64,000 bases of DNA from Methanothrix thermoacetophila PT (lineage in GTDB: Archaea > Halobacteriota > Methanosarcinia > Methanotrichales > Methanotrichaceae). This document shows, in pieces, positions 2,394 to 55,908 of the stretch. Position 1 is the stretch's first letter; each line of letters starts with the position of its first letter. The notes beneath the pieces are model-generated. The model was not told the DNA's origin and made no database searches. It saw nothing but the letters and a program-made list of their open reading frames with translations. The DNA lies in assembly GCF_000014945.1 (NCBI RefSeq), contig NC_008553.1:1178001-1242000 (forward strand), given 5' to 3'. A program made the position numbers and the translations under genes.

Positions 2394-2449
2394 GGCGACA
2401 TAAAGCGCGAACCACTGTGTAGAGCTTCAGGCATTCTATTTTTTGTGTA

Positions 2450-2573
2450 CGCTCTTATCTATTTGATGACTTGCCCGAAGGAGCAGTGGTCATGCTATGC
2501 GTTCGTGTCGAATGAATGTGGTCATCACCAACCACATCGCATGGCCCTACAAGTTGCTACCCACATATGAGCG
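2450..2573 (+). mobile_element. MITE-like element, family 2, with perfect 8-bp target duplication
   Basis: A 124-bp element opening CGCTCTTATC and closing ATATGAGCG. It is flanked by a perfect direct repeat TTTGTGTA (2442-2449 and 2574-2581), the mark of transposition with an 8-bp staggered cut. The interior (ACTTGCCCGAAG, TCATGCTATGCG, CTACAAGTTGCTAC) matches copies at 16259, 20471 (inverted) and 55642. It encodes no protein. Confidence 0.8.
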
Positions 2574-2768
2574 TTTGTGTATTGCCCAAATGCGGCCCGT
2601 ATCACTGAGATCAGCAGCATGTGACATGTGGGATTCACCTGGTGTTTGCTGTGTACGCCAGTATCTGGCAGATATCTCATACAGACGGCTCGGTGGTCCG
2701 AACATAGTATCATTTTTCAGACATGGCCATAACGATATCCTTAACAGCATCGCCGCTAATGACGATGC

Positions 2769-16192: not shown

Positions 16193-16467
16193 CCTGTCCG
16201 GACGAGAGCTGTGGCCAGAGATCCGGATCTTCCCCTCTTCTGCACATCATAAACACTACGCTCTTATCCATACGATCTGGAAAGACAATGGCCCCAGCAT
16301 GCGTTCTTGGAGAATGAATGAGTGCTTCCAACAACCAGACTACATTTCCTCTAAGTTGTTGAGTTCATGTAATCTATACAACCAGGATGCTCCGTTCCAT
16401 CCTACTCGCATTGGTTCTCATACAATAACACACAAGAGCAAACACCTAATCCTATTCGGACACATTC
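16190..16467 (-). mobile_element. MITE-like element, family 1, copy C, split by a family-2 insertion
   Basis: The left part (16190-16258, GGGCCTGTCCGGACGAGAGC through CATAAACACTA) and the right part (16440-16467, AAACACCTAATCCTATTCGG) join into one inverted family-1 element when the intervening family-2 element is removed. The junction repeats are AAACACTA and AAACACCTA. Confidence 0.7.
16259..16439 (+). mobile_element. MITE-like element, family 2, enlarged copy inside a family-1 element
   Basis: Opens CGCTCTTATCC and closes ACACAAGAGC. The interior matches the 2450 and 55642 copies up to CTAAGTTGTTG. A 65-bp segment copied from the 5' end of the surface protein gene (16362-16426) then precedes the terminal ACACACAAGAGC. 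Flanks AAACAC(C)TA look like a target duplication. Confidence 0.72.
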
Positions 16468-20470: not shown

Positions 20471-20593
20471 CGCTCTTATGTATTCAGCAACTTGAGGGAC
20501 ATGCACGCCAGTTGCTGAATGCACTCATTCGCTCGCCATTAGCGCATAGCAGGACTGGTGCCTCTGCGGGCAGGTTATCAGATTGATAAGAGC
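20471..20593 (-). mobile_element. MITE-like element, family 2, inverted copy
   Basis: Read on the minus strand it runs from GCTCTTATCAATCTGATAAC through GTCCTGCTATGCG and CCTCAAGTTGCTGAAT to ACATAAGAGCG, matching the 2450 and 55642 copies. CGCTCTT is repeated at 20464. No target duplication is clear. A perfect 11-bp internal inverted repeat, ATTCAGCAACT/AGTTGCTGAAT, spans 20482-20520. Confidence 0.72.
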
Positions 20594-20608
20594 TACCACG
20601 AGATGCGC

Positions 20609-25553: not shown

Positions 25554-25574
25554 CTACCCTACTCTGGAGGGTAG
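25554..25574 (-). other. Terminal hairpin at the tnpB 3' end
   Basis: CTACCCT (25554-25560) and AGGGTAG (25568-25574) form a 7-bp stem that includes the TAG stop of tnpB. Such hairpins mark the right end of IS605-group elements, where TnpB guide RNA also forms. The left end of the element is not certain. Confidence 0.5.
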
Positions 25575-26741
25575 GGCTTCCCACTTCATCGCCAAAACTT
25601 GCATCACAGATATATGATGTAGAGGTTTTGACTCTATGGGCACTACGGGCTGTTCCATCCCTGCAATGAGTATGTTCATGGAAGCATTGTAGTCTCTATC
25701 GCATGAGAACCCACAATAAGGGCACTCATGAATTCTGTCCGATAACTCTTTCCTCACAATGCTCCCGCAAGTGGAACACCTCTGAGTAGTGTTCCTTGGA
25801 TCTACCTTGATCAGCTTTCGACCAGCACTTTCAGCCTTGTACGAAAGCATGAATATGAACTTAGACCAGGATGCATCATGGATGTTTCGATGTGTGCCTT
25901 TGTTGTAACCTTTCTCCTTCAGACCCTTGACATCCAAGTCCTCGACGCAGATTATATCGTAGTTGTTGACATAATGTCTAGAGAGCTTATGAAGGAAATC
26001 CAATCTCTGATTATTGATCCTTTCATGAACTTTATTCAGTTTCTCTTTGAACTTCTCGCGGTTATTAGAGCCTTTCATAGCTCTCGATAATCTTCTTTGG
26101 ATGTTCTTAACTTTGGTAGCTACCTTCTCTGCAAATCTTGGATTCTCTACAGAATTTCCGTCTGTGTCGACAGCAAACGACTTCAAGCCAACATCTATAC
26201 CTACTGATTTTCCAGTTGCAGGCAGTGTCTCTGGCTCTTGATCTGCCTGAACAATGGCAAACCATTGCCTACCTTCTCTCTTGATCAGGATAGCCTTGAT
26301 GCATCCTTGAACTTTGCGATGCATTTTGATCTTGATGTCGCCTATCTTGGATAAATGCAAACAGCCATGATCTTGATCCAGCTTGAAGCCTGACTGATTA
26401 TAGTACATGGTCTTGTACCATCCATACCCTTTGAAGCGGAGACGACCGATCTTGCGACCATTCTTCTTTGATGCTGAGAGTCCTTTAATGTTAGACCAAA
26501 GAGTGTAATTCACCATCTGGAGGACTTTGGAATATACTAGGTTCAGTTTTGGATTTTCAAGCTTCAGAACGGGTATCATGTTCTGAGTGTCATAGGTCGT
26601 GAGCTTGATGCCCTTCTCTTTAGCTTCGTTCAGCTCTTGAAGAAGCCGATTATAGAGCCACCTACAAGCATCCAGCGCTTCAGCTAACTTTTGCTGTGTC
26701 GCCTCATCAGGAAATATTGGATACTTGTAGCTGATAATCAT
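25554..26741 (-). CDS. tnpB: IS1341/IS605-type TnpB RNA-guided nuclease homologue
   Basis: A 395-residue TnpB with an intact RuvC core: Asp183 in GIDVGLKS, Glu267 in CVEDLDVKG and Asp350 in CDRDYNASMN. A zinc ribbon with Cys322, Cys325, Cys340 and Cys343 lies between the last two. No TnpA partner is present, so this is a TnpB-only element. Lower GC than its neighbours suggests transfer. The stop codon sits in a 7-bp hairpin. By family knowledge the guide (omega) RNA would overlap the 3' end of the gene. Confidence 0.93.
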   Translation of the reverse strand: MIISYKYPIFPDEATQQKLAEALDACRWLYNRLLQELNEAKEKGIKLTTYDTQNMIPVLKLENPKLNLVYSKVLQMVNYTLWSNIKGLSASKKNGRKIGRLRFKGYGWYKTMYYNQSGFKLDQDHGCLHLSKIGDIKIKMHRKVQGCIKAILIKREGRQWFAIVQADQEPETLPATGKSVGIDVGLKSFAVDTDGNSVENPRFAEKVATKVKNIQRRLSRAMKGSNNREKFKEKLNKVHERINNQRLDFLHKLSRHYVNNYDIICVEDLDVKGLKEKGYNKGTHRNIHDASWSKFIFMLSYKAESAGRKLIKVDPRNTTQRCSTCGSIVRKELSDRIHECPYCGFSCDRDYNASMNILIAGMEQPVVPIESKPLHHISVMQVLAMKWEALPSRVG

Positions 26742-55507: not shown

Positions 55508-55641
55508 CTATAATTTGTTTGCTTTTATTGAATATAAGGATTCTCTTTTTCCCAGAATAGTCCTCTCGCATACAGAGATTCTGAGTGGAATTGCGATATG
55601 CCAAAAAGCCGTGGAGAAAGGGATGCTCAGAGTTCAGCATT

Positions 55642-55761
55642 CGCTCTTATCCATATGATGGCTTGCCAGAAGAGACACAGGTCTTGCTATGCACTTCTGG
55701 ATGCTGAATGATTTCAGCAACCAGCTTGTATGTCCTTCAAGTTGCTAGAGACAAAAGAGCG
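55642..55761 (+). mobile_element. MITE-like element, family 2, with perfect 8-bp target duplication
   Basis: A 120-bp element, CGCTCTTATCC to ACAAAAGAGCG, so CGCTCTT/AAGAGCG are perfect 7-bp ends. It is flanked by TCAGCATT at 55634-55641 and 55762-55769. The interior (TGGCTTGCC, GTCTTGCTATGC, CTTCAAGTTGCT) matches the other family-2 copies. AGCAAC/GTTGCT form an internal stem. Confidence 0.82.
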
Positions 55762-55908
55762 TCAGCATTTACGCCATCTATCAATCCTGTTATATAAGAT
55801 AGTTGGACGAAAAGAGCTTTTGTGGAAAGATGGCGTAGCCCACACAGTCATGCTCTGAGCGATCGTATTATCTACCATTAACCAGCAAACTAACTTTGGT
55901 GTCTTCCC

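Follow-up and report, generated by a model that had tools for sequence, protein, structure and literature searches.

A survey of 30 archaeal genomes described 44 families of miniature non-autonomous DNA transposons (MITEs) that have partner insertion sequences (ISs), together with 19 MITE-like families that have none (PMC3852290). Among the partnered families are a 179-bp element of M. acetivorans, attributed to ISMac21 of the ISL3 family and flanked by 7-bp duplications, and a 165-bp element of H. walsbyi, attributed to ISHwa6 of the IS1595 family and flanked by 8-bp direct repeats (DR; both in Table 4 of PMC3852290). M. thermophila is unnamed in the main text of that archaeal survey (PMC3852290), and we found no paper in the literature that names or describes a family such as the one presented here in the genus Methanothrix.

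We analyzed a stretch of 64,000 nucleotides (the window) from the genome of Methanothrix thermoacetophila PT, which is a single contig of 1,879,471 bp (C1); the window corresponds to C1:1178001-1242000. We are highly confident that a 124-bp element near the beginning of the window is one copy of a MITE family. It resembles the partnered archaeal MITEs in its length (100-200 bp), its lack of an ORF, its inverted ends, its duplications (7-8 bp) and its presence in several to many copies. In those partnered MITEs, the similarity to the IS is confined to the ends. Unlike them, the family described here has no partner IS that we could find in the genus, is present in more than 60 full-length copies, has ends composed of CGCTCTTAT and ACTTG, and occurs in one genus. 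It shares with the 19 orphan MITE-like archaeal families (PMC3852290) the inverted ends, the duplications and the lack of an autonomous IS, and it goes beyond that set in what is documented here: sites that are filled in one species and empty in another, subfamilies, modular variants and nested insertions.

The kind of element is a known one; what is new, as judged against the literature, is the family itself, together with its confinement to a single genus, the modular variants and the missing partner. Our understanding of how MITEs work is unchanged. It does provide a clean, high-copy mobile family for a genus of thermophilic, acetate-using methanogens, in which insertions that differ between species can serve as markers for genome comparison. 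It is also a well-defined case of an orphan MITE, in that it has transposed since the species separated, yet no matching transposase was seen.

The element and its copies in the window

The ends of the element at 2450-2573, CGCTCTTAT...ATATGAGCG, and the perfect 8-bp duplication TTTGTGTA that flanks it were read directly from the sequence (Table 1), in agreement with the original prediction of a 124-bp element held in perfect 8-bp repeats. Related copies had been listed at 16259, 20471 (inverted) and 55642, and all three are indeed present in the window. The copies had also been described as non-coding, and there is no ORF in the 124-bp element or in its variants.

The copy at 16259-16440 is inserted in a family-1 (IS6-type) MITE and is flanked by an imperfect duplication (AAACACTA/AAACACC(TA)); the family-1 copy at 2219 of the window has no interruption at the corresponding spot. 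To the earlier description of the copy at 55642-55761 we add a perfect duplication, TCAGCATT, which had been missed.

Table 1. Coordinates of the element, its parts, its other copies in the window, and a resident IS of the same genome
Feature	Position	Strand	Basis
Left target-site duplication TTTGTGTA	2442..2449	.	direct reading
MITE copy, 124 bp, without ORF	2450..2573	+	model match R1, 99.8 bits, E 1.1e-28
Left inverted end, outer block CGCTCTTAT	2450..2458	+	near-invariant columns, 51-copy alignment
Left end, inner block ACTTG, element positions 20-24	2469..2473	+	51-copy alignment
Right end, inner block CAAGT (ACTTG on the other strand, positions 20-24 from the right)	2550..2554	-	alignment
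Right end, outer block CGCTCATAT on the - strand, 8/9 as left	2565..2573	-	reading and alignment
Right target-site duplication TTTGTGTA	2574..2581	.	direct reading
Worn copy, interruption of ~60 bp near the right end, ~60 bp longer	16259..16440	+	sequence and model match
Full-length inverted copy, first base C to A, without clear duplication	20471..20594	-	sequence and model match
Left 8-bp duplication TCAGCATT	55634..55641	.	direct reading
Full-length copy, 120 bp, different subfamily	55642..55761	+	sequence and model match
Right 8-bp duplication TCAGCATT	55762..55769	.	direct reading
Nine identical IS copies of ~990 bp	L117, L121, L125, L129, L131-L135 (own genome)

Family size and end structure

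Used as a BLASTN query, the element yielded 41 matches in its own genome, at approximately 74-98% identity to the query copy. A pattern of the left end, with up to 3 mismatches allowed, matched the genome 68 times, as against 0 matches for the reversed pattern, and a model built from 51 aligned copies gave 113 matches, about 65 of which are full-length. Throughout the 51 copies the ends are built in two parts: CGCTCTTAT forms the tip and ACTTG occupies positions 20-24, with the same offsets on both sides. With its 124 bp, its variants of 112-255 bp, and no transposase ORF, the family has the short, non-coding form of a MITE.

The copies divide into several subfamilies, and one full-length pair is identical although found at different sites. 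In a tree of 161 copies the species label changes 30 times, compared with a mean of 80.5 for shuffled labels; old subfamilies are common to several species, and within them are large species-specific groups.

Evidence for transposition

As the original prediction had proposed, we aligned the copies found across the genome and scored their 8-bp flanks. An exact 8-bp duplication is present at 25 of the 48 distinct full-length copies in the genome, and a duplication with at most one mismatch at 35 of the 48. When the flanks were reshuffled 1000 times, the mean number of exact duplications was 0.5 (maximum 4), and the mean with at most one mismatch was 0.8. The sister species gave exact 8-bp duplications at 29 of 44 copies (null, 0.5-0.7), and for all distinct copies pooled the count was 77 of 149. 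Duplication lengths of 4-7 and 10-12 bp showed no excess over reshuffled flanks; the few 9-bp flank matches are chance extensions of the 8-bp duplication. Within the duplicated 8-mers, the first and the last base are preferentially A or T (63 and 67 of the 77, respectively), and there is a weak leaning toward the symmetric AAYGCRTT. Sharing of flanks does not continue past the ends of the element, and most of the other copies do have flanking direct repeats, in both respects the reverse of what had been named beforehand as evidence against a mobile element.

Comparison with the sister species revealed sites that are filled in one genome and empty in the other. For the copy at C1:40026 we joined the flanks with one 8-mer and aligned them through the orthologous site in the sister contig JAKPCO010000089 (L233), which is empty and has a single TCTCCGTT. 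The reverse case is the element at L233:5268, which is missing from the M. thermoacetophila genome, where the site has a single GTTCTCAA. Other copies are nested in mobile DNA: some lie within IS6-type MITEs, and the copy at G003:C6:113949-114072 lies in an IS256-family transposase gene, which it splits. The filled and empty sites, the duplications and the nested copies therefore show that transposition has taken place since the species separated. The earlier view of a miniature, non-coding element that is presumably mobilized in trans is supported by the inverted ends, the fixed 8-bp duplication, the high copy number, the empty orthologous sites and the absence of an ORF.

In the mechanism that we propose, a transposase encoded elsewhere would recognize the two-part inverted ends, with CGCTCTTAT as the outer block and ACTTG at positions 20-24 as the inner one, and would join the element to a target cut with an 8-bp stagger, which host repair would then convert into the 8-bp duplication. 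We infer that the MITE is moved in trans by a DDE transposase, and that the six sequenced species either have lost the source IS or were never sampled for it.

Modular hairpin variants

In a longer form of the element (140-200 bp), additional TTTCGACTTACCTTCGAC...GTCGAA hairpin units lie between positions 62 and 66. The number of these TTCGAC/GTCGAA units varies; we identified 27 distinct cases, 3 of them in the M. thermoacetophila genome, and one hairpin-bearing copy (C1:1323510) has the duplication ATTTGCTC. The BOX elements of Streptococcus pneumoniae have fixed end modules and a middle module that is present in zero to several copies, and the hairpin variants described here likewise keep their ends fixed and vary their middle units. 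This likeness is one of layout, and a relation in sequence is not expected; the mobility of BOX elements is less directly shown. As a separate observation, the copy at G000:C1:411534-411788 has an internal tandem array (CTTCTAGAAAGTAGAGTGCTTTTAGCCTCCCTACGCTAGGC...) that is expanded in its middle.

The hairpins raise the question of whether the family is a repeated regulatory or RNA element instead of a transposon. A 187-base hairpin variant (L223:3881-4067) folds far above its shuffles, with a z of -6.0, as that reading would have it. The short form, represented by the 124-bp copy, folds only weakly better than shuffles (z -2.2). The alignment of the short form has no consensus fold and the element has no Rfam match, and on these two grounds we rejected the identification as an RNA element; the 8-bp duplications, the empty sites and the nested insertions also speak against it, and we regard it as exceedingly improbable. 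For a family of transposons, later exaptation of single MITE copies is possible.

Distribution and genomic placement

The family is present in all six Methanothrix genomes, with at least 27 matches in each, and its end pattern was found in 0 of 232 genomes from the rest of the class. A stricter pattern of the left end was applied to 84,980 genomes, the element's own genome being left out, and it matched only contigs of three metagenome assemblies of Methanothrix. The end pattern was also found in no viral contig, and the element itself matched nothing among plasmids or phages; we rejected spread by plasmids, phages or viruses on this basis.

Copies are seldom found in genes. ORFs of at least 150 aa hold 5 of 64 copy sites, versus 61% of random positions near the copies and 77% in the window, where the intergenic statistics are drawn from the stretches around the copies and from the window. 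This avoidance of genes reflects selection, a preference for A+T-rich targets, or both.

Search for the partner transposase

A comparison of the MITE ends with those of complete ISs had also been proposed. We made it for five Pfam transposase families (PF01609, PF12762, PF00872, PF13610 and PF01610), which cover the IS4/IS5 superfamily, IS1595, IS256, IS6 and ISL3 and were searched in all six Methanothrix genomes. The five families yielded no IS with the MITE ends in the genus. The IS4/IS5 search (PF01609) identified three multi-copy ISs in the M. thermoacetophila genome, none of which has CGCTC ends, and the members of IS1595 (one match), IS256 and IS6 in the genus are likewise without MITE ends. 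The ISL3 transposase domain (PF01610) was found in none of the six genomes at E<=0.1. In 844 kb of sequence from the genus, we also searched for paired ends that lie 270-3500 bp apart, and only one nested case, on contig C12 of genome G003, has convincing ends; the other long pairs are weak and lack duplications. No autonomous copy was found in the 844 kb or among the five Pfam families, so the trans-acting enzyme is a putative one.

The G003:C12 element, of 1269 bp, has at first sight the makeup of an autonomous parent, in that the left end of the MITE (1-78) and its right end (69-124) flank a broken IS5-type DDE transposase with PF05598/PF01609 domains. Inside the MITE ends, however, is an inverted repeat of 12 bp without mismatches (GAGGATTCCTAT/ATAGGAATCCTC). 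In three genomes, a further four remnants of the inner IS begin or stop at this repeat with no adjoining MITE ends. On either side of the inner IS, the MITE sequence looks like an 8-bp duplication of TCGAATGA, which is itself internal to the MITE, and the composite as a whole has no outer duplication. We consider it very unlikely that this element is the parent and have rejected it as such; it is a nested IS5-type (ISH1-like) IS with its own ends, which are seen elsewhere. We note that one spot of the MITE, TCGAMTGA, has received two insertions, each in a MITE copy: an IS5-type (ISH1-like) IS with GGATTCCTAT ends (L127:1168-2436) and a small derivative that shares those ends (L174:1501-1720). 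Separately, an IS remnant in L151 has a degenerate MITE ~75 bp upstream; this pair was rejected as a composite, as the two are not joined.

A resident IS with ends of another kind might also mobilize the MITE, the example being an IS4-type IS with ends TGCTGTGTTGGATAA that is present in nine copies (Table 1). Its nine copies are identical and hence recent, and it too makes duplications of ~8 bp. Its ends, however, are unlike those of the MITE (p 0.12-0.22), and PF01609 has no match in genomes G001 and G004 despite the presence of at least 53 and at least 58 MITE copies, respectively. Mobilization by such an IS thus seems unlikely to us. As an element in its own right, this IS encodes its DDE transposase in a frame of 300 aa and has apparent 8-bp duplications, and it has undergone a recent burst.

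A partner from an undescribed or unscanned transposase family is a possibility that we entertain tentatively. It would be consistent with the outcome of the five Pfam scans, none of which gave an IS with MITE ends, and with the frequency of partnerless MITE-like families among archaea (19 in 30 genomes; PMC3852290); this is evidence of a negative kind only, and it covers some of the known transposase families. We are more doubtful of a reading in which the mover is an undescribed type of transposase, or one domesticated by the host, that is active in all six species, and in which the hairpins are BOX-like accessory parts that may regulate neighboring genes.

Similarity of the ends to ISL3 elements

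Alternatively, the lost partner may have been an IS of the ISL3 family, of which the MITE would have kept the outer bases and the 8-bp duplication; we advance this, too, as a tentative proposal. In other genera of the class, ISL3 elements are flanked by exact 8-bp duplications and have GGCTCTTCGCTRTTTNATGTGGGTAA as their ends; their positions 2-7, GCTCTT, are identical to those of the MITE. Most of these elements agree with one MITE end at 10-13 of the first 20 bases. When ISL3 ends were evaluated against random ends, the best single-end p values were 5e-4 to 2e-3, uncorrected, and after correction for the number of ends tested the similarity is suggestive only; ends of IS6, IS256, IS5 and IS4 type compared with the MITE gave p of 0.12 or more. 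A MITE that derives from ISL3 is also known from Methanosarcina acetivorans (PMC3852290, Table 4).

Other features speak against this assignment. The first base is G in ISL3 and C in the MITE, the inner blocks differ (GTGGGTAA in ISL3 versus ACTTGCC in the MITE), and the ISL3 transposase that a partner would supply (PF01610) is without a match in the genus. The same division is seen in the terminal repeat of the ISL3 elements of the class as a whole (GGCTCTTCGCT...GTGGGTAA), in which GCTCTT is common to the MITE and the inner block is different. The ISL3 elements of Methanosarcinia (L192-L220) have in common with the MITE the 8-bp duplication, the outer GCTCTT at 2-7 and the two-part layout of the end; they differ from it in having GTGGGTAA rather than ACTTG as the inner block, they have a transposase frame of ~405-417 aa, and they are absent from the genus. 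ISL3 elements were also found in other genera that belong to the MITE host's own family. Judging from the length of the duplication and from the outer bases, which are a weak pointer, ISL3-type would be our best single guess for the partner, one that we hold with some reserve and that is not a statement of membership. Given the two-part end and the ISL3-like outer bases, a search for the partner can be put directly to the test.

Other repeats and mobile elements

The window contains a second repeat family (2204-2320, and the region of 37371), with ends ACCTGTCCGAATAAG. It shares these ends with an intact 770-bp IS of the IS6 family in the sister genome G004 (L187, G004:C65). This IS (GGACCTGTCCGAATAAG...TTATTCGGACAGGTCC) has an open frame of 226 aa, and remnants of it are present in four further genomes of the genus. 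The repeat family with ACCTGTCCGAATAAG ends is most likely a family of IS6-derived MITEs. Hairpins with ends like those of an IS256 element of genome G001 (GTGTGCCGAAATTGCTGTAATTT) are found in L151 near 1590-1620 and in the region of G000:C1:1787983, and these are possibly a third MITE family.

Three copies of a set of matches follow one another at intervals of exactly 6885 bp in G000:C1:1641513-1657954 (L084), a pattern suggestive of a large tandem triplication. Finally, a 395-aa ORF on the minus strand of the window (25554-26741) resembles, by its translation alone, the TnpB/OrfB proteins of the IS200/IS605 group, and it may encode a protein of this kind.
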